This document shows positions 15,880 to 28,357 of a DNA stretch of 46,309 bases, piece by piece. A program made the translations under genes and the position numbers. A model generated the notes under the pieces. It had not been told where the DNA came from. It ran no database searches and saw only the letters and a list, made by a program, of their open reading frames with translations. Numbering within the stretch: the first letter of the stretch is position 1; each line of letters starts with the position of its first letter. The stretch spans positions 1-46,309 of the forward strand of contig JACCWK010000162.1 of NCBI GenBank assembly GCA_013697655.1, written 5' to 3'. Source of the DNA: Nitrosospira sp. (GTDB lineage Bacteria > Pseudomonadota > Gammaproteobacteria > Burkholderiales > Nitrosomonadaceae).

Positions 15880-16893
15880 TTACTTATCAGCCTGCTCACC
15901 ATTCAAACTATCAAACATTGCTTGTCCATAATAGCTATGGATAAATGTAGTAGGATGCAAAATGTCCCAGAAATAAAAAGGATGACCAAGATTGCCAGTA
16001 ACGTTGACGTCCGGACATTTTGTGGGATCAGTGAAAAGGCAACTTGAAGCGCCTGTTCCAGGAGCAATAAATTCTAGGGCAGGTGGAGTAAGGATGACAG
16101 ACTCCGAAGCAACAGTGCCCGTGCTCAAAAGATTTTGCGTTACCGAAAAAATGTCGACGAGGGTGATTTTTGCACCTTTTAGTCGAATTGCCAATTCATC
16201 CCCAGCTCTCTCCAATAAAGCGTTATGGCTTTCGGTAAGTTGAGCTAATTGTTTCGACCCTCCCGCGATGGGCGCCAAACTCAAGTCGGGCAGGTTCGGT
16301 ACAAGAAAATTTCGCGCACCAAGAGAATAGAGCGTTTCTATAGTTTTGGTGATATTTGCCACAACATCAACTGGCTTAACCGGTTCATCCGGTGTGGAGA
16401 AAATATAATCGTTAGCTCCCGTCCACACCACGAAAAGTGCCCCCGCTTGAGGCTTTTTGCCTTTCAATGCTTTTCGAAACAGCTCTACTTGACCCAGCGT
16501 TCCTGGCACAAAAAAACCTCCCGGCGTTTGGTTTACATAACCTGACGTTGATCCGCCGAATGCAAGGCTAATACCGCCGTCGAGCGTAAGCCCCTTCTTT
16601 GACAAAAATGGAGTAAGAAGCGCTTTGTTGTCCTTCTTCACCAGACGCCAGAGATACTCAACCGAAACCGGACCATTCGAAAAACGCCCGTTATAGTAGG
16701 TTCTATGGGGGCTTTCAGAGGGCGGTATCGACGGAACAATTCCTTGAGCCTTGGTAAGAATAACGTCGTTTCCGGTATCGGACAAGCTGTCGCCAAATAC
16801 ATAGAATGCATCGTTTTTTGGGGACGCAGCCAAACTCGCCGGGAACGCAAAAACTATTAATAACAGCAACCACAACCTGACAGCATTTTTCAT
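15880..16893 (-). CDS. Secreted GDSL-family esterase/lipase
   Basis: An SGNH/GDSL hydrolase of 337 residues (lecithinase/haemolysin-like group) predicted to be exported. A signal peptide is evident (MKNAVRLWLLLLIVFAFPAS, cleavage near residue 23). Block I is FYVFGDSLSDTGND with the catalytic Ser; the oxyanion Gly lies in LAFGGSTSGY; block III is VVWTGANDYIF with the conserved Asn; and the catalytic Asp/His pair lies in the C-terminal WDILHPTTFIHSYYG. There is no autotransporter barrel, so the product is periplasmic or secreted. AAAGGGG precedes the ATG at 16893, next to a GACCCC/GGGGTC hairpin. It could act on acyl esters of the envelope, but no substrate is shown. Confidence 0.9.
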   Translation of the reverse strand: MKNAVRLWLLLLIVFAFPASLAASPKNDAFYVFGDSLSDTGNDVILTKAQGIVPSIPPSESPHRTYYNGRFSNGPVSVEYLWRLVKKDNKALLTPFLSKKGLTLDGGISLAFGGSTSGYVNQTPGGFFVPGTLGQVELFRKALKGKKPQAGALFVVWTGANDYIFSTPDEPVKPVDVVANITKTIETLYSLGARNFLVPNLPDLSLAPIAGGSKQLAQLTESHNALLERAGDELAIRLKGAKITLVDIFSVTQNLLSTGTVASESVILTPPALEFIAPGTGASSCLFTDPTKCPDVNVTGNLGHPFYFWDILHPTTFIHSYYGQAMFDSLNGEQADK

Positions 16894-17470: not shown

Positions 17471-18256
17471 ATGCAGCTATCCAACCATCAAAATTCGCAT
17501 ATTAATAGATCCCATTCTCCGTTACCTGTCGGAGATGGTGATTACTTTAAATCGCTGTCGATCAGGAATGAAGCATCTTTAGATGACGGTTCCAATCCCA
17601 AATGCGTTTTGAGTCACCCTAATTACAATATTTGCCTCGCCGACTCACCTAAACGACGCACTCTAGTAAATCAGCTTATAAAAAGCATGTACTCTTGGCG
17701 GGGCTATCATACGGAGCATTCCGTGCCATCGACACATAACGCTAATCGACTGATGTTTGAGGCATCCATCAAGCAAAAACCTGTCGGCACGCTCACGGTT
17801 GGACTCGATTCTCAAGCCGGAATGCTTGTAGACACACTTTACGAACGAGAGATTGTGCGTTTTCGCATGAAAAATAGTAAGCTCTGCGAATTGTCGAAAC
17901 TTGCTATAGATCCTTTGCATAGCTCAAGGGAATTGCTTGCTTCTTTAGTTAATCTCGCTTACATCTACGCGCGAGTCTTAAATAACGTAGATGATGCATT
18001 TATCGAAGTTAATCCGCGCCATGCAGGCTTCTACAAACGTATGTTAGGGTTTCGTCAGATTGGCGAAAAGCGTACCTGTCAACGGGTTGATGCACCAGCC
18101 GTGCTTATGCACCTAGAACTGGACCACATGGAAGAACAGATTTCCTATTTGGCGGGCTCGCATGAACCCGCAAAGGAAAGATCACTGTATGCCTATTTCC
18201 TAACTAAACGTGAGGAAGAAAAGGCAGCCAACAGTCTCAGGCAGTATATTAAATGA
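17471..18256 (+). CDS. FeeM-type N-acyl amino acid synthase-like acyltransferase
   Basis: A 261-residue GNAT-fold protein resembling FeeM, which condenses an acyl chain from acyl carrier protein with an amino acid such as tyrosine and is structurally related to acyl-homoserine-lactone synthases. Seen in the sequence: an N-terminal region with a Ser/Asn-rich start, YSWRGYH near 75-80, CELSKLAIDP at 139-148 (the acyl-donor strand) and EVNPRHAGFYKRMLGF at 179-194 (the C-terminal GNAT helix and strand). No signal peptide or membrane segment is visible, so it should be cytoplasmic. No clear SD precedes the ATG. Proteins of this type often accompany PEP-CTERM/exosortase systems, and a PEP-CTERM gene lies 318 bases downstream. 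Product identity is unknown. Confidence 0.75.
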   Translation: MQLSNHQNSHINRSHSPLPVGDGDYFKSLSIRNEASLDDGSNPKCVLSHPNYNICLADSPKRRTLVNQLIKSMYSWRGYHTEHSVPSTHNANRLMFEASIKQKPVGTLTVGLDSQAGMLVDTLYEREIVRFRMKNSKLCELSKLAIDPLHSSRELLASLVNLAYIYARVLNNVDDAFIEVNPRHAGFYKRMLGFRQIGEKRTCQRVDAPAVLMHLELDHMEEQISYLAGSHEPAKERSLYAYFLTKREEEKAANSLRQYIK

Positions 18257-18504
18257 GTAGGGACTTGATACAAAGTCTTCTCACTCTTTGATGACAGTAA
18301 ACTTCCAAAAGAGAGGCTATCGGCTCCAGAGCTATTCTTACGTATTTCACTGAACCATATCCAACGTTAAGCATCTGTAACATTCTAGATTGTCGAAATT
18401 TCTTACACTTCTATCTGTCGCAAGTAGCGAATAATCTGCCTTTTTTATTTATCAAGCCTTTAGGTCAGAATCAGGCGCGCATACACGTATGGGACATTCT
18501 CATT

Positions 18505-18542
18505 TGAAAAAAGACTCCGCTTGTTTAACAAAGCGGAGTCTT
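18505..18542 (-). terminator. Rho-independent terminator of the PEP-CTERM gene
   Basis: AAGACTCCGCTT (18511-18522) and AAGCGGAGTCTT (18531-18542) form a perfect 12-bp stem. In the minus-strand transcript it is followed by a run of six U, reading towards lower coordinates. Confidence 0.9.
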
Positions 18543-18548
18543 ATGATA

Positions 18549-18572
18549 AAAACTCTTCAGTGAGTTTTTTTT
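18549..18572 (+). terminator. Second, shorter terminator-like hairpin
   Basis: AAAACTC-TTCAGT-GAGTTTT followed by more T on the plus strand; the minus strand also gains a short T run. It may stop plus-strand transcripts from the FeeM-like gene just before they enter the PEP-CTERM gene. Confidence 0.45.
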
Positions 18573-18574
18573 GG

Positions 18575-19399
18575 TCAACCTTTACGACGACGCTTGGTTG
18601 ACGCACCAATCCCTAACAGGCCGATCCCGAGCAGAGCTAGGGTAGCGGGTTCCGGAATCCTGTTGAAATCCACGCCTCCACTAGCTTGATTGATCGTTAT
18701 ATGACTATCAGCCAGTACAAAAACGCCTTGGGCGGTATTATTAAACTCTTGAAACTGTAAGTTGTAGAACGGCACAGGGGCCGTAAATAACTGCGACCCC
18801 GCAGCGTTAAGGCTGAAACTGTTTGTCGTATTAAAACCGGTTCCACCTTGGCCGTTAATAGCGGCATCTCCTACAAGCAAGCCTGCAGTGGCTATTATAA
18901 AGCTGTCAGTCCCATGGTTGACTGATGCGGCCCCCCCGGCATTGGTTGCCGGATTGAAAGTAGTAGCAGAGGCGATAGTAGGGTCGACCCATAAGGTTGC
19001 ATTCAGGCCAGTGACGGTGTAGGTGCTATTTACAGCGGCATAGGTGCCGCTCGTCAGCTGTAATGTATAGCTGAATTCGGCCCACATCTGCCAGTTATTG
19101 TTCAAACCGCTAACATTGCCAAGCACATTGGTTTGATTATCGACGAAGGTTGAAAAATTGACCCATCCCTGTCCAGCTTGAGTTTGATGACCGGTATTTA
19201 GTGCTACGAGACTGGACGAGTTACCTATGATGAAGTTTGCGTCGAAGGGGCCGGGGTGCGGACCGCCCAGTGCTCCGAAAGCGGCATTAGGATCGACGGT
19301 AAATACTGCGATCGCCGAAGCGTGTGAACTGAATCCAAGGGCCAGAACAGCCACTACGCCGGCTGCTTGCAAGTTTTTGTACATGGACGATAATTTCAT
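18575..19399 (-). CDS. PEP-CTERM surface protein, PepA-like
   Basis: A 274-residue exported protein destined for exosortase processing. It has a Sec signal peptide (about 1-29, ending SSHASA), a low-complexity Asn/Thr/Ala/Gly-rich body without Cys, and a textbook PEP-CTERM tail: Pro-Glu-Pro at 249-251, a hydrophobic helix and a closing KRRRKG. Features such as FTVDPNAAFG after the signal and FTAPVPFYNLQFQEF resemble the flocculation-associated PepA group as remembered; this subgroup call is tentative. Established knowledge links such proteins to extracellular polymer and floc formation. The exosortase gene is not in the window. A sigma-54-type promoter lies upstream, and a 12-bp terminator follows. 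Confidence 0.92.
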   Translation of the reverse strand: MKLSSMYKNLQAAGVVAVLALGFSSHASAIAVFTVDPNAAFGALGGPHPGPFDANFIIGNSSSLVALNTGHQTQAGQGWVNFSTFVDNQTNVLGNVSGLNNNWQMWAEFSYTLQLTSGTYAAVNSTYTVTGLNATLWVDPTIASATTFNPATNAGGAASVNHGTDSFIIATAGLLVGDAAINGQGGTGFNTTNSFSLNAAGSQLFTAPVPFYNLQFQEFNNTAQGVFVLADSHITINQASGGVDFNRIPEPATLALLGIGLLGIGASTKRRRKG

Positions 19400-19800
19400 T
19401 ATGAATCTCCCTAAAGTGACACTGCGTGAGTAATTAAACCAAACGGAAAGCTTTCGCTGTTCTCGAGAGTTATATAAGCAGGATCCGTGCCATATTATAT
19501 TTAATATGTAACATCAATTAATTAGGAATCTTGGAGGAATTCTTGCCGTACTTATATGTAAAAAATTCCGACATATATGCAGAATGATATTTGGACTCTG
19601 TACCCCAGCGTAGATATTTCTGCCCAAATCGCATTCAGAGGCCAAACCGATGTTGTACTATGCTTAAGAACATTCGCACGCCTATGTCGCTACGCTCAGG
19701 TCAAAACGAAACCGGAGCGACCCTAGCTTAACGCACACAAATACCTAATAAGCAACACTGACATAGCTCAGACTCTCAAATAGGCCAAATGTAGAGCATT
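19400..19800. other. Promoter region of the PEP-CTERM gene and upstream of the flavin oxidase
   Basis: A 401-base AT-rich gap. It contains the sigma-54 site at 19477-19492 and an inverted repeat TATATGT...ACATATA around 19553-19577. The flavin oxidase starts at the right end without an obvious promoter or SD. No ORF of note. Confidence 0.45.
19477..19492 (-). promoter_or_regulatory. Sigma-54 (RpoN) promoter of the PEP-CTERM gene
   Basis: Read on the minus strand: TGGCACGGATCCTGCT. It matches the -24/-12 consensus TGGCAC-N5-TTGCW at every defined base except the first T of TTGC, and lies about 78 bases before the ATG at 19399. PEP-CTERM genes in several proteobacteria are known to depend on RpoN with PrsK/PrsR, which gives the match functional support. 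Confidence 0.75.
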
Positions 19801-21345
19801 GTGATGGATTGTAGCCGCACAGATAACGTAACCGGACGATTAAAAACAATATTGGCTGTTCACGAGCCGGCGAATGTCGAGGATATAGTCGCGATTGTTC
19901 ATTCCGCCCGATTTTCACGCCTACCATTGTACCCTGTTTCAAAAGGATTTAACTGGGGATACGGATCACGATCCCCAGTAACCGAAAACTGCGCATTGGT
20001 TGACTTGGGACGAATGAACCGGATTCTCAATGCAGAAAGGATATCGGTCGACAACCCAATTGCCGTGATAGAACCGGGAGTAACTCAAATCCAGCTTTAT
20101 GAGTTCCTGCAGATCCACTGTCCCCAACTCACTTTTAACGTTACAGGCTCTGGCCGGGATACCAGCATTATCGGCAATGCGCTCGATCGCGGCGTGGGAT
20201 ACATGGGTCCGCGCAAGGATGACGTTTTCGGTCTGGAAATAGTTACAGGTACCGGTGAAACACTCCGCACCGGCTTCCGAAGGCTTGGTGACTCATCCCC
20301 TCTCGCGCATAGTCACCCATTTGGTATAGGGCCGATTCTTGATGGATTATTCTTTCAAAGCAATTTCGGCATCGTCACCAGTGCATGTTTCCGTCTATCT
20401 CCAAGACGACCCAAGGAGGTTGCTGTTTCTCTCGCGCTTCGCAGGGCTGCCGATCTGCCTCAATTCATAAACGAGTTGGCACGCCTCAAGCGGGATGGCT
20501 TGCTCACCTCTGTGACCCATATTGCAAACCGTGCACGAACGCGTTCTACCTTGAGTTTCGGCATCACCCGTTATTTGGAGAACGAGTGTGGTTTCAGCCG
20601 CGAGGCAGCCAACAGCGAAGCCGACCGTGCAATAAACATGGTCGTCACTGACGAATGGACGAGCCTGGCATCCGTGACGGGTAACGCGGGACAGGTAAAG
20701 GCGGCGCTTGGGGAAATTCGTTACAGAACAATCGGTTATGCTCGCCTGATGGTCATTACAGACAGACGCCTGGATTTGGGCTATGCCGTAACCCATGCCC
20801 TACGCTTTATTCCTTTCGCCCGCGCAAATGCCGCTGCGATCTCAGCCCTGCGTCCGCTTCACAAGCTGGCCCTGGGAGTACCGACAGATGTAGCCATCGA
20901 GAACCTGCTCTGGAAATTCAATTATAGGAATAATCACGCGGTCGAGCTCGACCAGTCACGGTGCGGACTGCTGTTCGTTAACCCGGCCCTCCCTCTCGAC
21001 GGTCAGTTTACCGCCGAGATAGTCGAAGGAATGAAATCAATTGCAGCACAATACAACCATAGTCTTTACATAACAATTAACGTTGAAACTACAACCTCTC
21101 TAGTGGCAATAATTAACCTGCTGTTCGACCGGGGCTCGCCGGAAGAGGTGGACCGTGCTCACAATTGTGCGGATGCCCTGCTCGCCTATATACGCCAGAG
21201 AGGACTTGAACCTTACCGTGCGCGAGCCGACATGATGGATAAGATTGTGGCGACAGACCCAGACTATTGGAAAAAAATCCGCTCTCTCAAAAAAATATTC
21301 GACCCCGACAACATCATCGCTCCGGGACGTTACAATCTGCCGTGA
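19801..21345 (+). CDS. FAD-linked oxidase of the VAO/PCMH family
   Basis: A 514-residue flavoprotein. The N-terminal FAD-binding part (about 20-230) shows HEPANVEDIVAIVHSAR, PVSKGFNWGYGS, VIEPGVTQIQLYEFL, the cofactor loop NALDRGVGYMGPRKDD, and FFQSNFGIVTSACFRL; the C-terminus ends in the family-typical FDPDNIIAPGRY. The architecture resembles the vanillyl-alcohol oxidase / p-cresol methylhydroxylase group, which oxidises para-substituted phenols, although the substrate cannot be read off. The start is GTG 19801 or ATG 19804; a TAG lies three codons upstream, and the N-terminus is shorter than I would expect for the family. No signal peptide. It is first in the plus-strand row leading to the two permeases, separated from them by a transposase relic. 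Confidence 0.82.
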   Translation: MMDCSRTDNVTGRLKTILAVHEPANVEDIVAIVHSARFSRLPLYPVSKGFNWGYGSRSPVTENCALVDLGRMNRILNAERISVDNPIAVIEPGVTQIQLYEFLQIHCPQLTFNVTGSGRDTSIIGNALDRGVGYMGPRKDDVFGLEIVTGTGETLRTGFRRLGDSSPLAHSHPFGIGPILDGLFFQSNFGIVTSACFRLSPRRPKEVAVSLALRRAADLPQFINELARLKRDGLLTSVTHIANRARTRSTLSFGITRYLENECGFSREAANSEADRAINMVVTDEWTSLASVTGNAGQVKAALGEIRYRTIGYARLMVITDRRLDLGYAVTHALRFIPFARANAAAISALRPLHKLALGVPTDVAIENLLWKFNYRNNHAVELDQSRCGLLFVNPALPLDGQFTAEIVEGMKSIAAQYNHSLYITINVETTTSLVAIINLLFDRGSPEEVDRAHNCADALLAYIRQRGLEPYRARADMMDKIVATDPDYWKKIRSLKKIFDPDNIIAPGRYNLP

Positions 21346-21865
21346 TACCTTCACTTCGATATCAGGCCTTCTTATCCATCGAAGTCGCCAAAAACGCAGA
21401 GAAGTTCTTTTGTCGATCCCAAGACTTCCGCCCGATCTGAATCGCCCTTATTTTTGATATTCCCAACCGCATTCGATACCGCATACTTCGGTGCGATGCT
21501 CAAATACATATGCACGCGATCAATCATCATATGCCTTCGACAATCCTCTATTTGTAGGCCCTTTTCCATGAGCGATCAAAAATTCCCGCAGATCACTGTA
21601 AGGCCAAACCTTGGCAACCCCCCGAAGTTACCTGATGGCTTACTATTGGAGCTAGTCGCAAAGAATCAGTGCCCGCAGAAGAACAGCACAAAACCACTGA
21701 AGGGCAGTTATAATCTTTCAGACACAGCTTGTAGCAACCGAATTTTAGCGCGAAGAACAGCATGTCGTTATCAGGCGACTACTACGATGCCTGAGGTGCA
21801 GGTCGATGCCGATCAGTTTCTCGGCACAAGTGGGATGCGGACGTAGGGAATAAGGGCCATCATCG
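21346..21865. other. Gap with IS200-type debris
   Basis: A 520-base stretch between the oxidase and the first permease. Its left half holds the transposase relic. The right half (21570-21865) contains no recognisable protein; an open plus-strand frame at 21454-21846 has no family features and overlaps the relic. AAGGG at 21852-21856 is the likely ribosome-binding site of the permease. Confidence 0.45.
21364..21569 (-). pseudogene. Decayed IS200/IS605-type transposase (TnpA)
   Basis: The minus-strand frame from about 21569 reads HMMIDRVHMYLSIAPKYAV and then NAVGNIKNKGDS, plainly the core of an IS200-type Y1 transposase, whose usual form is HMMPDHVHM...SIPPKYSV...G.IKGKS. The HUH metal motif is damaged (Arg in place of the first His). 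Similarity then moves to another frame (DRQKNFSAF), showing a frameshift, and an upstream part (LREFLIAHGKG) is in a third. The N-terminus and the catalytic Tyr helix are missing or unrecognisable. It cannot be active. Confidence 0.72.
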
Positions 21866-23092
21866 GTGAGAACATTCTGGCTCGACTTTAATTTGGCGTA
21901 CCACAATGTCGTACGCCAAAAACGCCGTAGCGCCATCGCAGTTGGCGCTATCGCATTTGGTATCACTGCCCTGATCTTGGCGAGCGGCTTCATTGAATGG
22001 ACACTTGTGGATTTTCGCGAGTCCACAATCAAGTCACAACTGGGTCATCTGCAAATCGTACGTCCAGGCTATCATGACGCTGGGAAAGCGGATCCCTACG
22101 CCTTCCTGCTACCAGACACCATGCCTGAACTGGAAGCAGACGAATTCAAGCAAATAAGGGCAGTCGCCCCACGAATATCCTTTAGCGGTCTCATCAGCCG
22201 CGGTGAAGCAACCCTTTCATTTATCGGTGACGGCGATGATCCCCAGCAACAAGAAGTTTTTGGCGACGCGTTGCAGATTTCAGCGGGCCGGAATCTCTCC
22301 GCTGATGACCCGTACAGTATCATAGTCGGTGAGGGGCTTGCACGCAATCTTGGTGTCAATGTCGGCGATCAGGTCATACTGCTGGCAAACACCGCATCGA
22401 GAGGAACCAATGCGGTAGAGGTTACCATAAGGGGTCTTTTCTCCACTGTTACCAAGTCTTATGACGATTCCGCCCTCAGAATGCCTATCGACACGGCGCG
22501 CCGACTGCTCCGTACCCAAGGCTCCCATACATGGATGGTGCTCTTGAACGACACCTCACAAACCGATATCATGCTCGCAGAATTACGCGAGAAGCTGCAA
22601 AAGAACGGTTTCGAGATTGTTCCATGGTATGCGCTGGCAGACTTCTACAATAAAACTGCAAGCTTGTTTACCAAGCAGATCCGGGGAATCAGGCTGATTA
22701 TCGCCTTGATTATCCTCCTTAGCATCTCGAACACCATGACCATGAGTGTAATGGAACGGATCGGAGAAATCGGTACTTCCATGGCACTCGGCGTGAAGCG
22801 TACCGGCATCATGCGCCTATTCCTCTGCGAAGGTGTTCTCCTCGGCTGCCTCGGCGGTCTGCTCGGTTTGATATTAGGACTATTATTGGCCAGTGTGATC
22901 TCCAGTATTGGTATCCCCATGCCCCCACCGCCAGGAATGGCGCGAGGCTACACAGGACAGATTCTTGTTACCTGGGATATAGCGCTTGAATCACTGGTAC
23001 TCACCGTCGCCACGACGCTGGCCGCCAGCATATACCCAGCCTGGAGAGCATCCCGGATGCAGATTGTCGATTCTTTGCGTCATAATCGATAA
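21866..23092 (+). CDS. ABC transporter permease, FtsX/MacB type (first of pair)
   Basis: Inner-membrane permease of 408 residues with the LolC/E-MacB layout: an N-terminal helix (about 20-42), a large periplasmic domain (about 45-270), and three C-terminal helices (about 275-297, 322-350, 376-398). Motifs include NLAYHNVVRQKRRS before helix 1, ISNTMTMSVMERIGEIGTSMALG after helix 2, and the unusual SSIGIPMPPPPGMARGY between helices 3 and 4. Start is GTG 21866, with AAGGG nine bases upstream. It is paralogous to the next gene, 13 bases away, so the two should form a heterodimer served by the ATPase at 25948-26733. Such permeases do not pump across the membrane but drive substrates out of the outer leaflet. 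Confidence 0.9.
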   Translation: MRTFWLDFNLAYHNVVRQKRRSAIAVGAIAFGITALILASGFIEWTLVDFRESTIKSQLGHLQIVRPGYHDAGKADPYAFLLPDTMPELEADEFKQIRAVAPRISFSGLISRGEATLSFIGDGDDPQQQEVFGDALQISAGRNLSADDPYSIIVGEGLARNLGVNVGDQVILLANTASRGTNAVEVTIRGLFSTVTKSYDDSALRMPIDTARRLLRTQGSHTWMVLLNDTSQTDIMLAELREKLQKNGFEIVPWYALADFYNKTASLFTKQIRGIRLIIALIILLSISNTMTMSVMERIGEIGTSMALGVKRTGIMRLFLCEGVLLGCLGGLLGLILGLLLASVISSIGIPMPPPPGMARGYTGQILVTWDIALESLVLTVATTLAASIYPAWRASRMQIVDSLRHNR

Positions 23093-23105
23093 TCAGCGGA
23101 ATATC

Positions 23106-24317
23106 ATGTTCAAGCTTGCACTGCGCAATGTTGTGCGTCAGAAAATACATACGGCGATGACGCTGGCTGCAATCGTGGGCGGCGTAGCGGGACTTATCGT
23201 TGCTGGTGGCTGGGTGAACGACATCTTTGTGCAGCTGTCCGAAGCCCTGATTCATTCGCAATCGGGACATCTACAGGTCTATAAGGCGGGATTTTTCGCT
23301 GAAGGATCGCGCACACCGGAAAAATACCTAATTGCAAATCCAAATGCTATCAAACAACGCATTAATACCGAGGCAGGCATCGCCAACGTAATGGCGCGGC
23401 TAAACTTTTCTGGACTTTTAAATAATGGGCGCAGTGACTTGCCGATCATCGGTGAAGGAGTGGAAGCGGAGCAGGAGGCCGTATTGGGAAGCTCCGTCTC
23501 CATTATTGCCGGACGTCAATTGAGCGACAAGGATGCATTTGGCATGGTAGTCGGAGATGGCGTCGCGCGGGGATTGAAATTAAAACCTGGCGACCACGTG
23601 ACATTGCTTGCGAACGCGCTCGAAGGCGCGCTGAATAGTTTGGATTTTGAAGTAATTGGTGTCTTCCAGAGTTTCTCCAACGATTATGACGCACGGGCTA
23701 TAAGAATCCCGCTTGCCGCAGCCCAAGAGTTGCTCGGCACACAAAGCGTGAATGCACTCGTCATTTCGCTGAAGAAAACTGATGATACGGATCGTGTTGC
23801 AGTCTGGCTAAAGGAGCACCTTGGCGCTTCGGGGCTGGAGGTCAAAACATGGGTCGAACTAAACGACTTCTATGAAAAAACCGTAGAGCTGTATAAAGGC
23901 CAGTTTGGCGTACTGCAACTGATCATTCTCGTCATGGTTCTACTAAGTGTTGCAAATAGCGTGAACATGAGTATTTTTGAGCGGGTGGGAGAGTTCGGCA
24001 CAATGATGGCTATCGGCAATCGCAGCAGTCAGGTATTTTGGTTGATCGTAACCGAAAGCGTATTGCTCGGGCTTATTGGTAGTTGCCTTGGGGTTGGGGT
24101 CGGCGTGCTACTGGCACTCGCTATTTCATCTGTCGGTATTCCGATGCCGCCACCGCCGAATGCTAACGTTGGTTATATGGCCCACATCCTGATTATCCCC
24201 TCAGTATTGCTGATGTCCTGTGCCATCGGCACCGGGGCTACTATTCTGGCGGCTGTCCTTCCGGCAAGGCACGTTTCCCGCACTCCGGTTGTCGACGCGC
24301 TGAGACAGAATTTCTAA
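23106..24317 (+). CDS. ABC transporter permease, FtsX/MacB type (second of pair)
   Basis: A 403-residue paralogue of the preceding permease with the same four-helix layout and the same SSVGIPMPPPPNANVGY loop. It begins MFKLALRNVVRQKIHTAM; the periplasmic domain contains SQSGHLQVYKAGFF and the strand pair HVTLLANALEG, and the FtsX helices begin with LLSVANSVNMSIFERVGEFGTMMAIG. ATG 23106 is 13 bases after the first permease stop; frames extending back to 22986 overlap that gene and lack similarity. It is convergent with the outer-membrane protein gene, with 48 bases between stops and no strong terminator. A Lol-like role in lipid or lipoprotein movement is inferred from the neighbouring ATPase and LolA-like gene. 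Confidence 0.9.
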   Translation: MFKLALRNVVRQKIHTAMTLAAIVGGVAGLIVAGGWVNDIFVQLSEALIHSQSGHLQVYKAGFFAEGSRTPEKYLIANPNAIKQRINTEAGIANVMARLNFSGLLNNGRSDLPIIGEGVEAEQEAVLGSSVSIIAGRQLSDKDAFGMVVGDGVARGLKLKPGDHVTLLANALEGALNSLDFEVIGVFQSFSNDYDARAIRIPLAAAQELLGTQSVNALVISLKKTDDTDRVAVWLKEHLGASGLEVKTWVELNDFYEKTVELYKGQFGVLQLIILVMVLLSVANSVNMSIFERVGEFGTMMAIGNRSSQVFWLIVTESVLLGLIGSCLGVGVGVLLALAISSVGIPMPPPPNANVGYMAHILIIPSVLLMSCAIGTGATILAAVLPARHVSRTPVVDALRQNF

Positions 24318-24365
24318 TTTTTATCTGCCCTATCACGAAAGAATCCGTATTTTTGCGGGTAACCA

Positions 24366-26000
24366 TCAGAATGAATAACGCAACTCTGTGTAAACTCGGT
24401 CATTATGGTTGAAACGGCCGAACAGGCCGGTGGGTTTGCCACCAAAAACATCTGCTCCGACCGCCCAGTTCCAATTTCTCTCGAAATTCCAGGAAAGCCG
24501 TGGCCGGAACATCCAGTCGTTGTGGTTCAAACTGTGGATCAGCAATGTCTGCGCTTCGACCTTCTGCCAAAGTTTACCGGTAAGCAGGACGCTAGCTCCG
24601 TTCTCTATCCTGTCTGAAAATATGCCTGGATCGTAAGAGAAAAAAACGCGCTGGAAGAATTGCAAATTCAAACGGCCTTCGGCAGGCAAGCTGAAATCAA
24701 GCCCAAGCGCATAATCGAGGGTATTCTGCCTGACCAACCCATCCATCGCGGCAGGACTTGCGACATTGAATTTGCGCCCATCTGTATAAACCAATTCACC
24801 CTTGAGCACGACTGTGCCAAAATCTTTCGTGACGGTGCTGCCAAACTGGTCGACCTGGTCATGGCGCGGCTGAAAGACGAGCGGTTCGGTCGGCCCGTTG
24901 ACGCGATAGAAGGTGGAAGAGGCATCAAGGCTATGATAATAAAAGCCTGAAATATCCCAACCATTTTTCAATTGCGATAAGCGAAACCCATAATTCGAGT
25001 TGCCAACGTTGCGCCCCGAACGATCTTCGCTCAGGTATGAAGCGGTCCCGCGCAACGGCCCAGGATAAAAATCAGCCCCCGGCTTACCAATCTCGTCAAG
25101 AGTAGGCACGGGAATCCACAACACCTCAGCATGTATATCATTCTTCGAATATTCAGCACGCATCGCCCACTGGGGGATACGCAATATATCAAATGCGGGG
25201 AGGATAAACTCACGCAGATCTTTGGCCGACACAACATCAGCGAAAAACAGTCCAACCATCTCACCCCATACCACATGTTGGCGGCCTAGGCGAAAGTCGA
25301 AATTACCGGCGGAAATGTCCAGATAATTCTCGCGCAGAAAGAACTGCTGGCGTTGGTCGTGGCGAACTGCTGACGGATAGAAATTAGATAGGTCATAGGC
25401 GGCATCATAGTCGAATCGGCCACTTATTTTCCATTTGAGGTGCTCATTGAATTGTCCAGTACGAGACAGTTCAGTTCGCAGCTTCGCTTTGGAAAAATGC
25501 TCTGGGCTACTATAATTGTCAGCGATTTCTAGTTGAGAAAACCCGCTCCAACCAGTCACCAATTTTTTCCAGCCTGACATGGTAGGAGCTTTCTCATTTG
25601 CCAAGACATCGTTACCGAATAGCATGTCGCGCGAACTAATATCGCTTTCTTTGTAACTGTTACCCTGCGTGGCTACCTTTTCTTCGTCATCTGTTACCAA
25701 TGGGGTTGAAAGTGAAGAGAGTGAAGAGGATGACTGTATAAATAAAGGCTCCCCGTTCCCCTTATCAATCGCAATTACATTACTTTTACCCATGGACTTT
25801 GCTGATTGGGAAAGTGATAACGACAAAAATAAGGATAATGGTTCTGCGTCAACCTTATCAAGTATCGCGCGATCTGTTGAATTGCCTTCGGCAATGCTGT
25901 GCAGCGGCAAAGCAATCAATGCCGCAGCAAATACAAAATATCCAAATTTACATCTGGATCCCATCCGTCCCGCTTTGATCCGCACGCTGGGATAAGACAT
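24366..26000 (-). CDS. Outer-membrane beta-barrel protein, DUF1302-like
   Basis: An exported protein of about 544 residues. A signal peptide ends near HSIAEG; then comes a low-complexity stretch rich in Leu/Ser (LSLFLSLSLSQSAKS), a linker, and from about 150 a barrel of alternating strands. FFLRENYLDISAGNFDFRLG followed by RQHVVWGEMVGLFFADVVS matches the DUF1302 signature, and the C-terminal aromatic YSF fits BAM-dependent insertion. The start is uncertain: ATG 26000 is used, ATG 25964 gives a tighter signal peptide, and TTG 26024 is unlikely. All overlap the ATPase stop at 25948, so the two are translationally coupled. It could be the outer-membrane acceptor of the transporter; the substrate is unknown. 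Confidence 0.8.
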   Translation of the reverse strand: MSYPSVRIKAGRMGSRCKFGYFVFAAALIALPLHSIAEGNSTDRAILDKVDAEPLSLFLSLSLSQSAKSMGKSNVIAIDKGNGEPLFIQSSSSLSSLSTPLVTDDEEKVATQGNSYKESDISSRDMLFGNDVLANEKAPTMSGWKKLVTGWSGFSQLEIADNYSSPEHFSKAKLRTELSRTGQFNEHLKWKISGRFDYDAAYDLSNFYPSAVRHDQRQQFFLRENYLDISAGNFDFRLGRQHVVWGEMVGLFFADVVSAKDLREFILPAFDILRIPQWAMRAEYSKNDIHAEVLWIPVPTLDEIGKPGADFYPGPLRGTASYLSEDRSGRNVGNSNYGFRLSQLKNGWDISGFYYHSLDASSTFYRVNGPTEPLVFQPRHDQVDQFGSTVTKDFGTVVLKGELVYTDGRKFNVASPAAMDGLVRQNTLDYALGLDFSLPAEGRLNLQFFQRVFFSYDPGIFSDRIENGASVLLTGKLWQKVEAQTLLIHSLNHNDWMFRPRLSWNFERNWNWAVGADVFGGKPTGLFGRFNHNDRVYTELRYSF

Positions 26001-26733
26001 TACCACTCGTATTGCGGCGCTCAATCACCATGGCTAATTTTTCTTCCTCCGTTACGTCTTGAGTCGCGAGCTGTCCATCTTCAATACGTACCAACCGGTT
26101 CGCCATCGCCATGACACGCCAGTCATGGGTAGAAAAAATAAAGGTCGTCTTGAAATTGCCGTTAATATCCTTCATTAGTTGCAAGATTCCTTCACCAGTC
26201 TTATGATCGAGATTAGCGGTCGGTTCGTCCGCCAACACGATTTTCGATTGTGTCGCCAGTGCGCGTGCAATCGCCACACGTTGGCGCTGTCCGCCGCTAA
26301 GCTGATTCGGCCGATGGTTGGTGAACTTGGATAAGCCCACGATGGAAAGATACTTCGCGACGCGGTTGCGGCGCTCTGTTCCGCTCAGTTCCTTGAATTG
26401 CAGTAGGGGATACTCGACGTTTTCCTCTGCCGACAGAACAGGCAACAGATTGAATGTCTGGAAAATAAAACCGATAGTCCGCGCCCTCAGATCCGAAAGG
26501 TCATCCGGTGTCTGTCCACTGACATCCTGGCCGTTAATGAATATTTTTCCAGACGATGGAGTATCGATGCAGCCGATTAGATTGAGTAGCGTAGATTTAC
26601 CACTGCCGGATGGACCGGCAATTGCCAGAAACGCGCCGTCCTCAATATTCAGGGTAATGTCCATAAGTGCCTGGACTTTCTGTTCACCCAGGGAGTAATC
26701 TTTAAAAACGTGCTCAAGTCGTACAATGCTCAT
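25948..26733 (-). CDS. ABC transporter ATPase, LolD/MacB type
   Basis: A cytoplasmic ATPase of 261 residues. Walker A is GPSGSGKST (about 39-47), the Q-loop lies in IGFIFQTFNLLPVLSAEENVEYPL, the signature is LSGGQRQRVAIARAL, Walker B is IVLADEPTANLD, and the switch His is in FSTHDWRVMA. The Q-loop sequence and the DEPTANLD motif place it with LolD/MacB, the partners of FtsX-type permeases. A C-terminal extension of about 30 residues overlaps the outer-membrane gene. It is encoded opposite the two permeases, so the transporter comes from two transcription units; 55 bases separate its start from the divergent LolA-like gene. Confidence 0.93.
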   Translation of the reverse strand: MSIVRLEHVFKDYSLGEQKVQALMDITLNIEDGAFLAIAGPSGSGKSTLLNLIGCIDTPSSGKIFINGQDVSGQTPDDLSDLRARTIGFIFQTFNLLPVLSAEENVEYPLLQFKELSGTERRNRVAKYLSIVGLSKFTNHRPNQLSGGQRQRVAIARALATQSKIVLADEPTANLDHKTGEGILQLMKDINGNFKTTFIFSTHDWRVMAMANRLVRIEDGQLATQDVTEEEKLAMVIERRNTSGNVLSQRADQSGTDGIQM

Positions 26734-26788
26734 GGGAATATCCTAGAATGTGTAACCTCAGAAGCGAGCAGCGTCCATAGGAGCGAAA

Positions 26789-27538
26789 ATGCAAAAAGAA
26801 TCTTTGCAATACCTGTTTACAGTGATTTTCCTGTTTTTCACCGTGGCGTCCGTTGCAGCAGACGATGCGGAATTAGCTCATAGCATCATGGAGAAGGCCG
26901 ATCAGATCCGCTTCCCACGCGAAAGCTTCCAGGTTGACGTCAGCATCATTACTACTGCCGCTGATCAACAGCCAGACATGCATAAATATCGTGTCCTGTC
27001 TAAAGGCAATGAAAACAGCGTGGTAATGGTCACAGAACCAGCCTCCGAACGTGGCCAGATTATACTAATGAAAGAACGTGATTTGTGGGTATTCATGCCT
27101 AGCATTTCACAACCAGTGCGCTTGTCGTTGTCCCAACGCCTGACCGGCCAGGTGGCCAATGGTGATCTGGCGCGGGCAAATTTCGCTGGCGACTACAACG
27201 CTACAATCCTGCGCACCGATACCATCGATGGCGAGAAGTATTACGTACTGCAACTCATTGGCGTGGATCGGAGTGTCACCTATCATAAAGTTTTATACTG
27301 GGTACGGCAATCGAATTTCTGGCCGTACCGCGCCGAGTTTTACTCGTTGTCTGATCGCTTGCTCAAAACTGCCCATTATGAAAATTTCCAGATGCTGCTT
27401 GGCAAGCAGCGTCCGACCCGCCTTGTCATGGAGGACGCACTCCGTAAGGGCGAAAAATCCGTACTGAAATATTCAGAGATGACCCTGCGGGATCTTCCAG
27501 ACAAAATCTTTACTAAAGACTATCTGAAAAAACTTTAA
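26789..27538 (+). CDS. LolA-like outer-membrane lipoprotein-sorting protein
   Basis: A periplasmic protein of 249 residues with a signal peptide (about 1-24, ending SVAAD) and the LolA-like fold of the outer-membrane lipoprotein-sorting group (PF17131 type). Recognisable parts are a helix AELAHSIMEKADQIRFP, strands such as SVVMVTEPASERGQIILMKER, the DLWVFMPSISQPVRLSLSQR turn, NGDLARANFAGDYNATIL, and VLYWVRQSNFWPYRAEFYS. In LolA a half-barrel carries acyl chains across the periplasm; here it presumably carries whatever the FtsX pair releases. AGGAG lies 8 bases before the ATG. It shares a transcript with the acyltransferase downstream (54-base gap). Confidence 0.85.
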   Translation: MQKESLQYLFTVIFLFFTVASVAADDAELAHSIMEKADQIRFPRESFQVDVSIITTAADQQPDMHKYRVLSKGNENSVVMVTEPASERGQIILMKERDLWVFMPSISQPVRLSLSQRLTGQVANGDLARANFAGDYNATILRTDTIDGEKYYVLQLIGVDRSVTYHKVLYWVRQSNFWPYRAEFYSLSDRLLKTAHYENFQMLLGKQRPTRLVMEDALRKGEKSVLKYSEMTLRDLPDKIFTKDYLKKL

Positions 27539-27592
27539 CCGGGCAAACAGAAGCGCATCACAAATAAAGAAAGCATCTAAGGAGATCAAATC

Positions 27593-28357
27593 TTGTTCCT
27601 ACCCGATACAGTCGACTTGGGAAATGGTTTCAAACAATACTTCGAAATTGTACCAGCGTTTTCGAAATCGCTAAAGGAGGAGGTCTATCGCGTGCGGCAC
27701 GAGGTTTATTGCGAAGATCTGGAATTTGAGTCGTTGCGCTCGGATAGGCGTGAGACCGATGAGTACGATCCCTATTCGTTGCATATCCTGATGCGCAGCG
27801 TCCAGACAAATGAGTTCATCGGTTGCACTCGCCTTGTTCGCCCCCGGCCAGAAGATCCACACTGTCCACTTCCCTTTGAGATTACTTGCGCCGACATACT
27901 CGACCGATCGATCGTCGATCCGGCAAAGCTGCCGCGTCATAGTATTGCGGAGGTATCACGTCTCGCGGTCATTGCTCGCTATCGGAGACGTAAAGGTGAA
28001 TCAAACACAACTCTTGGTATCTCTGACGAAGACTTTGGTACACTGAAATTGCCGCGCTTCCCCTATATTTCAATCGGCCTCTATCTCGCCACTACTGAAC
28101 TGGCACGCCTGAACGGAATCGATACTCTCTTTGTACTGACAGAGGAACGACTAGCCAATCATTTCGGCAAACTTGGCGTCAAAGTTCAATCCATCGGAGG
28201 AGCGATTGAACATCATGGCAAACGCATGCCTTCAATGATGAGTGTCAGTGGCATCATCAACGATATCCGAAACATCATCCGCCCCCTCTACCACACAATT
28301 GCGATAGATATAAAGAAAGGCATTGAGAAATGTAATTCGGATGAAGATTTCGTTTGA
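27593..28357 (+). CDS. PEP-CTERM/exosortase-associated acyltransferase
   Basis: A 254-residue protein of the acyl-homoserine-lactone-synthase-like family found with exosortase systems (TIGR03694 type). The N-terminus has VYRVRHEVYCEDLEFE (31-46), the counterpart of the AHL synthase substrate loop; IGCTRLVRP (76-84) and AEVSRLAVI (119-127) are the GNAT core strands; LFVLTEERLANHFGKLGV forms the C-terminal part. The start is TTG 27593, fixed by AAGGAG at 27579-27584. No signal peptide. It is the second acyl-transfer enzyme of this type within 11 kb and is co-transcribed with a LolA-like carrier, suggesting an acylated product that has to cross the periplasm. The true product is unknown. Confidence 0.85.
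   Translation: MFLPDTVDLGNGFKQYFEIVPAFSKSLKEEVYRVRHEVYCEDLEFESLRSDRRETDEYDPYSLHILMRSVQTNEFIGCTRLVRPRPEDPHCPLPFEITCADILDRSIVDPAKLPRHSIAEVSRLAVIARYRRRKGESNTTLGISDEDFGTLKLPRFPYISIGLYLATTELARLNGIDTLFVLTEERLANHFGKLGVKVQSIGGAIEHHGKRMPSMMSVSGIINDIRNIIRPLYHTIAIDIKKGIEKCNSDEDFV

Follow-up and report, generated by a model that had tools for sequence, protein, structure and literature searches.

How does a lipid made by an N-acyl amino acid synthase (NAS) leave the cell that produces it? This question is raised by a gene island of Nitrosospira sp. The DNA studied, called the window below, is the entire contig C23 (JACCWK010000162.1 of assembly GCA_013697655.1, 46,309 nucleotides) of a 3.03 Mb draft genome in 258 contigs. 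The island contains a FeeM-type NAS, a second acyltransferase of the family TIGR03694, a flavin oxidase of the vanillyl-alcohol oxidase (VAO)/p-cresol methylhydroxylase (PCMH) type, a Lol-like transport set consisting of two permeases, an ATPase and a LolA-like carrier, a DUF1302 protein and a PEP-CTERM surface protein. An earlier note, made from the sequence, had named these genes, and searches with profiles for FeeM, TIGR03694, PF17131, MacB_PCD/FtsX, FAD_binding_4, DUF1302 and NF033554 recovered all of them. We propose, with a probability of about 0.6, that the locus is a biosynthesis-plus-export island of the XrtA/PEP-CTERM type for an oxidized N-acyl amino acid lipid, both the product and the cargo being deduced from protein families and gene neighbourhoods. 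The island genes very probably form a functional unit. Numbers preceded by G, C, L and g are our handles for genomes, contigs, loci and genera.

Conservation of the locus in Nitrosomonadaceae

A sample of 100 genomes of the family Nitrosomonadaceae was searched with the LolA-like protein. Orthologues with at least 349 bits were found in 30 genomes, and the next score falls to 139 bits. In all 30 loci the TIGR03694 gene lies downstream of the LolA-like gene on the same strand, with a gap of 11 to 2653 bp, and the DUF1302 gene is located on the opposite strand. The ATPase gene lies within 8 kb of the LolA-like gene in 29 loci, 27 of which have the two genes on opposite strands. One or more permease genes are present within 12 kb in 28 loci, and two in 25; in G034 they are encoded on the strand opposite LolA. 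In several genomes the pair is a more distant version with 50–55% identity, which looks like a replacement.

The presence of FeeM, called at 100 bits or more, follows that of the LolA-like gene. FeeM was found in 34 of the 100 genomes, which comprise 27 of the 30 LolA genomes and 7 of the 70 others (p=8.5e-15, kinship ignored). Within the genus g3, nine of the 11 LolA genomes contain FeeM, compared with three of the 49 others (p=7e-7, kinship likewise ignored). FeeM and LolA share a contig in 22 genomes, and in 20 of these they lie 7–16 kb apart.

The earlier note had set beforehand that a transporter set conserved without either acyltransferase or the oxidase, or acyltransferases always located elsewhere with exosortase genes, would mean neighbourhood by chance. 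The LolA locus was never found without TIGR03694 in the 30 loci, FeeM and an oxidizing module track LolA, and the arrangement reappears in genomes of Rhodocyclaceae type and in seven other families. A chance neighbourhood was thus ruled out by the co-occurrence of FeeM and LolA, by the invariable synteny of TIGR03694 and DUF1302, by the recurrence outside the family and by the mutual exclusion of the modules described below.

Further observations concern genomes in which the LolA-like gene is decayed or absent. In G014 and G054 (loci L051 and L052) the LolA-like gene survives only as a remnant with stops or short frames and the ATPase gene is broken too, while the tailoring genes and TIGR03694 beside them are intact, which represents a natural loss of the transporter. 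G036 and G046 belong to the same genus and are the two genomes without any LolA match; a cytochrome P450 gene adjoins TIGR03694 in G036 (L088:6809-8248, 239.5 bits), and a homologue is found on G046:C277.

Two interchangeable oxidizing modules

The part of the island near FeeM and the permeases varies between genomes. It contains PEP-CTERM genes and genes for tailoring enzymes, whose families were assigned by testing one or two members per gene cluster: VAO-type oxidase, ThiF, Acg-type nitroreductase, fatty acid desaturase, UDP-type glycosyltransferase, O-methyltransferase, cytochrome P450, glucose-methanol-choline (GMC) oxidoreductase, AMP-binding ligase and a reductase-type short-chain dehydrogenase/reductase (SDR). 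The surroundings of 38 FeeM copies (at least 100 bits) in the fetched pieces were examined in all frames within a radius of 20 kb. A VAO-type oxidase accompanies 13 copies and ThiF and/or nitroreductase 18; no copy has both and seven have neither, five of these being located close to a contig end. The exclusion is significant (Fisher p=1.6e-5, kinship ignored). In a tree of 37 FeeM proteins, 30 of which carry a module label, the label switches at least nine times, at least five of the switches being forced by starred branches, and the labels show no more clustering than randomly shuffled ones (as low in 203 and 238 of 500 shuffles). The counts and the tree therefore indicate that each FeeM copy is accompanied by at most one oxidizing module and that the two modules swap. 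The oxidase of the window is one of these two interchangeable modules. The interchange is genomic and presumably extends to the chemistry.

In the sister islands, ThiF and the nitroreductase are of the families known from the Oxz and Tyz systems and are encoded by either split or fused genes. The model NF011425 covers the whole combination in 989 positions, with FeeM aligning at 30–235, ThiF at 312–586 and the nitroreductase from 622 onward. Neither ThiF nor a nitroreductase is encoded within 20 kb of FeeM in the window, and so the locus is not of the OxzAB/TyzABC type. An island-type VAO gene is present in 19 of the 100 family genomes, 18 of which also contain FeeM. The earlier note had regarded the oxidase as part of the set. 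This holds for an oxidizing module, which lies near most FeeM copies; the VAO type itself is not general and alternates with ThiF/nitroreductase.

The VAO-type oxidase

The solved proteins nearest to the oxidase by sequence are PCMH, eugenol oxidase (EUGO) and VAO. A structure model with a predicted local distance difference test (pLDDT) score of 89.7 was compared with the PDB. The 47 best matches are phenol oxidases of the VAO group (E at most 5e-29), and the next group follows at 3e-20. The oxidase thus combines a PCMH-type flavin adenine dinucleotide (FAD) domain (PF01565) with the VAO fold, at 22–26% identity to the VAO-group structures. Its residues Y54, Y472 and R473 align with Y95, Y473 and R474 of PCMH (numbering counted from the alignment). 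We take the Tyr, Tyr and Arg at these positions of PCMH and VAO to be the phenolate-binding residues; the mutants Y108F and Y503F of VAO appear in PDB titles. All three residues are thus present in the oxidase of the window. Tyr54 is found in all 14 island oxidases. Thirteen of them extend to the C-terminus; all 13 have Arg473 and 10 have Tyr472. Of 40 sequences from a wider set, all have Y472 and R473, and 34 have Y54.

A generic FAD protein of the glycolate-oxidase type was considered and rejected: such relatives score about 228–304 bits, mainly in the N-terminal part, while the island type reaches at least 499 bits. No signal peptide was seen by eye in the oxidase sequence, and the enzyme should therefore act in the cytoplasm. 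The profile match extends upstream past an in-frame TAG (19780-19801); N-terminal residues may have been lost, or the draft may contain an error.

Recurrence outside the family

Contigs encoding relatives of the oxidase were scanned for the best 80 of 577 confirmed relatives, to which the following counts refer. The 29 nearest (L132–L160, 47–72% identity), among which L140 is from Nitrosomonas, are called clade I and were compared with the remaining 51, which are more distant. Within 3 kb of the VAO gene, a PEP-CTERM gene occurs in 28 of the 29 nearest and in 7 of the 51 distant loci. The corresponding numbers within about 10 kb are 15 and 5 for FeeM, 15 and 5 for PrsT, the tetratricopeptide repeat (TPR) protein of the XrtA system, 8 and 0 for the permeases, 6 and 0 for LolA, 4 and 0 for TIGR03694-like genes, and 0 and 2 for ThiF/nitroreductase. 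LolA, ATPase, DUF1302, PEP-CTERM and VAO genes and at least one permease gene are found together in L133, L135, L136, L137 and L139, which are labelled Rhodocyclaceae, Desulfobulbus, Dechloromonas, Betaproteobacteria and Rhodocyclus, respectively. In L132 (Rhodocyclaceae) the genes for PepA, VAO, permease A, permease B and TIGR03694 follow in a row. In the genome of L138, DUF1302, ATPase, LolA and FeeM genes lie together (L221), and FeeM is located about 13 kb from VAO. When 14 such genomes were searched as a whole, FeeM or TIGR03694 scored over the cut-off in 13.

These neighbourhoods bear on the substrate of the oxidase. We see an even chance that the enzyme acts on the product of the synthase. 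The island may also work as described while its oxidase converts another phenol, for instance a PEP-CTERM-related or a lignin-type one; the known enzymes of the VAO group act on small phenols, and the closer tie of clade I to PEP-CTERM genes than to FeeM is consistent with such a role. The substitution of VAO and ThiF/nitroreductase for each other near FeeM argues against it, as does the presence of FeeM in nearly all family genomes with VAO. VAO also lies directly beside FeeM in the Massilia loci L146, L147, L149, L158, L183 and L196, in L141, L154 and L198, and in a planctomycete locus (L201). We consider another phenol an unlikely candidate. In the planctomycete locus (L201:8862-11497, Planctomycetaceae) the gene beside the VAO-type oxidase is FeeM-like, with 143.7 bits to PF21926.

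The transporter was followed at the class level by an alignment search with LolA in 369 genomes, from which the 20 best non-self places were fetched. Outside Nitrosomonadaceae, 13 orthologues with at least 331 bits were found in seven other families; the next score is 144 bits. All 13 loci contain two permease genes and an ATPase gene, 12 contain DUF1302, 10 ThiF and/or nitroreductase, 10 a PEP-CTERM gene, 6 PrsT and 6 TIGR03694 (eight proteins, all over the cut-off). The seven remaining loci (at most 144 bits), which served as controls, contain an ATPase and one permease, and a second permease, DUF1302, ThiF/nitroreductase, TIGR03694, PEP-CTERM and PrsT were found in none of them. VAO was found in none of the 13 orthologous loci. 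This indicates that the transporter goes with enzymes of the N-acyl-tyrosine type as a class, and that the version with VAO is one variant. Our own FeeM profile found no FeeM in the 13 loci; PF21926 finds one (81 bits) after DUF1302 in the piece of G190 that also holds LolA and the ATPase. Since our profile is less sensitive than PF21926, it yields only minimum counts of FeeM. Across the class, a FeeM search at E 1e-20 had hits in 15 of 274 genomes, among them that of Nitrosospira sp., and few of our profiles matched in the pieces fetched around these hits.

The same loci speak to the view that the transporter is a general carrier of outer-membrane lipids or lipoproteins, and that the synthases and the oxidase cluster with it only through a hotspot for accessory genes. 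Such a hotspot would fit the genus g1. In most of the g1 genomes compared, the island is bordered by redoxin and inositol phosphatase genes at one end and by amtB and/or rng-maf at the other; these flanks are fixed and enclose a hypervariable site. Gene clusters resembling IS200/605 transposases were noted by eye in some islands. The more distant LolA_like proteins also sit in simple sets of ATPase, permease and LolA. However, the second permease and ThiF/nitroreductase recur in the other families and are missing from all controls, FeeM and LolA co-occur genome by genome, and a LolCE that passes the curated cut-off is encoded elsewhere in the genome. A general carrier in a hotspot is thus very unlikely.

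Relation to the Lol and PEP-CTERM systems

The permeases and the ATPase resemble LolCDE and MacB. They score below the curated cut-offs for LolCE and LolD, and a separate LolCE with 509.8 bits is encoded on contig C106. The canonical LolCDE was for this reason rejected as an identification; the island transporter is not the housekeeping Lol system. The Lol-like route put forward in the earlier note is thus retained as a likeness and not as the curated family. For DUF1302, structure modelling of seven sequences gave many strands at low confidence (pLDDT 46), which is unfit for a fold search.

The genome encodes XrtA (TIGR03109, 355.6 bits, with an EpsI domain, contig C110) and XrtB (464.7 bits), and the island itself carries a PEP-CTERM protein (PF07589, NF033554). 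A long XrtA-type exosortase, classed by open-frame length and score, is present in 29 of the 30 LolA genomes, the exception being 80% complete, and in 33 of the 34 FeeM genomes. PrsT is encoded in some family islands (TIGR02917, 952 bits in the one tested). The tie to the PEP-CTERM surface claimed in the earlier note thus stands as a tie of genomes, seen in the locus and in XrtA. Craig, Cherry and Brady reportedly assigned exosortase-linked acyltransferases to the NAS as well in 2011.

Lol systems transport acylated proteins. The Lol-like machine could accordingly move lipidated PEP-CTERM proteins, if the exosortase attached the N-acyl amino acid lipid to the cleaved protein and the transporter took the anchored product to the outer membrane. 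The nesting of the LolA locus in XrtA-type genomes, the PEP-CTERM proteins inside the islands, PrsT in some relatives and the nearly constant neighbourhood of clade-I VAO and PEP-CTERM genes are all compatible with this idea. On the other hand, an intact LolA locus is missing from 12 of the 41 genomes that encode a long XrtA-type exosortase. In the genus g2 none of the nine small genomes yielded an exosortase match (PF09721), while TIGR03694 scores over its cut-off in five of them (G005, G009, G013, G017 and G025), which indicates that the TIGR03694 enzyme can serve without an exosortase. Outside the family, the partners of the transporter include the small-molecule enzymes ThiF and nitroreductase. 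Transport of lipidated PEP-CTERM proteins is quite improbable. The Lol-like machine probably carries the N-acyl amino acid lipid or its oxidized form.

TIGR03694 also occurs outside the island (L102:10369-15994, contig C155 of the same genome, as well as L105, L106 and L107). In all four loci it is followed by the same three gene clusters, with products of 148–151, 410–432 and 972–1025 aa, the last being, in the single member tested, a cyclic-di-GMP protein of the GGDEF/EAL type.

Gene organization of the locus

The genes of the window are listed in Table 1. The core of the island consists of the permease pair, the overlapping ATPase and DUF1302 genes, and the LolA-like gene followed after 54 bp by TIGR03694. 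Because the ATPase and barrel genes lie on the minus strand, the core appears from its geometry to comprise three transcription units rather than one operon. The overlap involves the 3′ end of the ATPase gene; the open frame of DUF1302 reaches 26024, and its likely start is at 25964. The GDSL esterase gene may be an accessory gene. Homologues were found near FeeM in seven other genomes among those compared, all with VAO-type islands.

Table 1. Genes of the island in the Nitrosospira sp. window, with the supporting profile matches
Product	Position	Strand	Evidence
GDSL esterase, possible accessory gene	15880..16893	-	PF00657 67.5 bits; PlaA-like type 99.6 bits, under cut-off 450
FeeM-type N-acyl amino acid synthase, 261 aa	17471..18256	+	PF21926 168.6 bits (cut-off 27); phmmer vs FeeM 2G0B E 1e-10
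PepA-type PEP-CTERM surface protein, 274 aa	18575..19399	-	NF033554 180.8 bits (cut-off 80); PEP-CTERM motif PF07589
VAO/PCMH-type flavin oxidase (4-phenol oxidase fold), 514 aa	19801..21345	+	FAD_binding_4 PF01565 72.2 bits (cut-off 26.4)
Permease A, FtsX/MacB/LolC-like, 408 aa	21866..23092	+	PF12704 and PF02687; TIGR02212 114.9 bits, under cut-off 362.45
Permease B, FtsX/MacB/LolC-like, 403 aa	23106..24317	+	PF12704 and PF02687; TIGR02212 94.1 bits, under cut-off 362.45
DUF1302 protein, putative outer-membrane beta-barrel	24366..25964	-	PF06980 43.2 bits (cut-off 23.2)
LolD/MacB-type ATP-binding cassette (ABC) ATPase, 261 aa	25948..26733	-	PF00005 121.2 bits; TIGR02211 217.4 bits, under cut-off 307.75
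LolA-like carrier, 249 aa	26789..27538	+	LolA_like PF17131 172.5 bits (cut-off 30); signal-sequence-like N-terminus by eye
TIGR03694 PEP-CTERM/exosortase system-associated acyltransferase, 254 aa	27593..28357	+	TIGR03694 254.2 bits (cut-off 111.95)

Proposed pathway

In the first step of the proposed pathway, FeeM and/or the TIGR03694 enzyme would link a long acyl chain, probably taken from an acyl carrier protein (acyl-ACP), to an amino acid, which judging from the protein families is most likely tyrosine. The second step would be carried out by the VAO-type oxidase, probably in the cytoplasm. The enzyme would bind the phenol head group as a phenolate and remove the benzylic hydride, and the resulting quinone methide would rearrange into an α,β-desaturated or a β-hydroxylated compound. 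A dehydrotyrosine as the product is possible but rather doubtful. In the sister islands, genes for a ThiF-type cyclase and a nitroreductase-type flavin oxidase occupy the place of VAO. In the third step, permeases A and B together with the ATPase are predicted to lift the amphiphilic product from the inner membrane and to pass it to the LolA-like carrier, which would deliver it to or through the DUF1302 barrel; this outward direction is suggested by the Lol/MacB folds and the synteny. Finally, the product may cooperate at the cell surface with exopolysaccharide and the PEP-CTERM protein in attachment or aggregation. In other bacteria, the disruption of a PEP-CTERM-linked synthase in Methylomonas LW13 abolished the normal polysaccharide band, which was restored by complementation (PMC11072679), the PEP-CTERM gene pepA and prsT are involved in floc formation in Aquincola (PMC9850573), and stieleriacines are lipids that shape biofilms (PMC7293339).

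Several observations weigh against the proposed biosynthesis-plus-export island. FeeM is missing in three of the 30 LolA genomes, and FeeM with its module lies 886 kb from LolA in G011 and 45 kb in G050. FeeM, VAO and TIGR03694 are kept in the four genomes with a decayed or absent LolA gene (G014, G054, G036 and G046); their survival without LolA means that this exporter is not indispensable. Both modules are present in one genome in G010 and G042, at separate islands, the first with ThiF/nitroreductase and the second with FeeM and VAO within 5 kb of each other. VAO occurs together with ThiF/nitroreductase in two of the 80 wider loci, L182 and L206. Y472 is replaced by Phe in three island oxidases, and the preference of clade I for PEP-CTERM genes over FeeM and the g2 genomes described above, in which no exosortase was found, also belong here. 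Rhodocyclus purpureus (L139) has the transporter and VAO, and neither FeeM nor TIGR03694 over the cut-off was found in its whole genome. No reported product was found for any Nitrosomonadaceae island.

The chemistry of the second step meets a further difficulty. Pseudoduganella umbonata CECT 7753 (L157), which we take to be the same species as Massilia umbonata, contains a clade-I VAO, PrsT, a PEP-CTERM gene and FeeM about 8 kb away. According to PMC12479983, Massilia umbonata has no ThiF/nitroreductase in its candidate clusters, and only saturated kyonggic acids, which are N-acyl tyrosines, are reported from it. This could be explained by a silent oxidase, by an overlooked product or by an oxidase that does not make dehydrotyrosine. 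Saturated products in the presence of the oxidase argue against a dehydrotyrosine product and also agree with an oxidase acting on another phenol. The earlier note had suggested a phenol derived from tyrosine as suited to the oxidase. This is favoured by the fold, by the phenol-binding residues and by the sister module, which is described as acting on N-acyl-tyrosine (PMC10404671 and PMC12479983), and is disfavoured, as far as dehydrotyrosine is concerned, by this producer. Taken as a whole, the interpretation in that note is partly supported.

A broader reading, to which we give somewhat less than an even chance, is that the VAO-type oxidase repeatedly took over from the Oxz/Tyz module and provides an independent second route to oxidized N-acyl-tyrosine lipids, and that the Lol-type transporter, the LolA-like carrier and DUF1302 are their dedicated trans-envelope exporter across many Gram-negative PEP-CTERM bacteria. 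If true, a Lol machine would serve a secondary-metabolite lipid rather than lipoproteins. The locus offers an answer to the question of lipid exit that can be tested gene by gene, namely a dedicated Lol-like route combined with two interchangeable oxidizing modules. The LolA-like gene, the two permease genes and DUF1302 can be used as a handle in genome mining for N-acyl-tyrosine and acyl-oxazolone clusters, and the surface biology of ammonia oxidizers may thereby be linked to biofilm-shaping lipids such as the stieleriacines (PMC7293339).

Comparison with known systems

The oxidase shares its fold and phenol-binding residues with the VAO/4-phenol oxidase family, which includes PCMH, eugenol oxidase, VAO and 4-ethylphenol oxidase. 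It differs from them in its low sequence identity and in its setting among lipid and PEP-CTERM genes. Likewise, the transporter shares with LolCDE-LolA a MacB_PCD/FtsX permease pair, a LolD-like ATPase and a LolA-like carrier, but it is distinguished by permeases and an ATPase below the cut-offs, a PF17131 carrier, a DUF1302 partner and clustering with lipid enzymes.

ThiF and nitroreductase form the module of the published N-acyl-dehydrotyrosine and acyl-oxazolone clusters, in which they are described as acting on N-acyl-tyrosine (PMC10404671 and PMC12479983). In Mycobacterium tuberculosis, TyzA makes N-acyl-tyrosine, which is desaturated with O2 by TyzC of the nitroreductase superfamily and cyclized by the ThiF protein TyzB; mmpL9 adjoins tyz (PMC10404671). 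OxzB of proteobacteria is a fusion of ThiF and a flavin oxidase (PMC12856293). The combination of synthase, flavin oxidase and cyclase in TyzABC and in OxzAB of Pseudoalteromonas rubra and other proteobacteria is also that of the sister islands. The Nitrosospira sp. locus differs from both in its VAO-type oxidase in place of ThiF/nitroreductase, and from TyzABC in its Lol/MacB-type ABC transporter, LolA-like carrier and DUF1302 protein in place of the MmpL neighbour.

Clusters of NAS, ThiF and nitroreductase genes are also described in PMC7293339 and PMC12479983, where Stieleria maiorica adds a methyltransferase, a desaturase, a PEP-CTERM gene and unspecified transporters. The same gene types are found in the Nitrosomonadaceae islands. 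The available cluster descriptions name neither a Lol-like transporter nor a VAO-type oxidase; the word “oxidase” is absent from PMC7293339, and “transporter” and “FAD” are absent from PMC12479983. In the open-licence literature, judged by titles and the openings of abstracts, no paper was found that connects N-acyl amino acid synthases with either a VAO-type oxidase or a Lol-like transporter. The adjacency of NAS and PEP-CTERM genes (Craig, Cherry and Brady 2011, as cited in PMC4897644, PMC7293339 and PMC11072679) and the Oxz/Tyz enzymes are thus already known. The Lol-like exporter and the VAO variant are apparently new, and the Nitrosospira sp. island and its relatives differ from the known NAS–PEP-CTERM linkage in adding a dedicated exporter and two interchangeable oxidizing modules.

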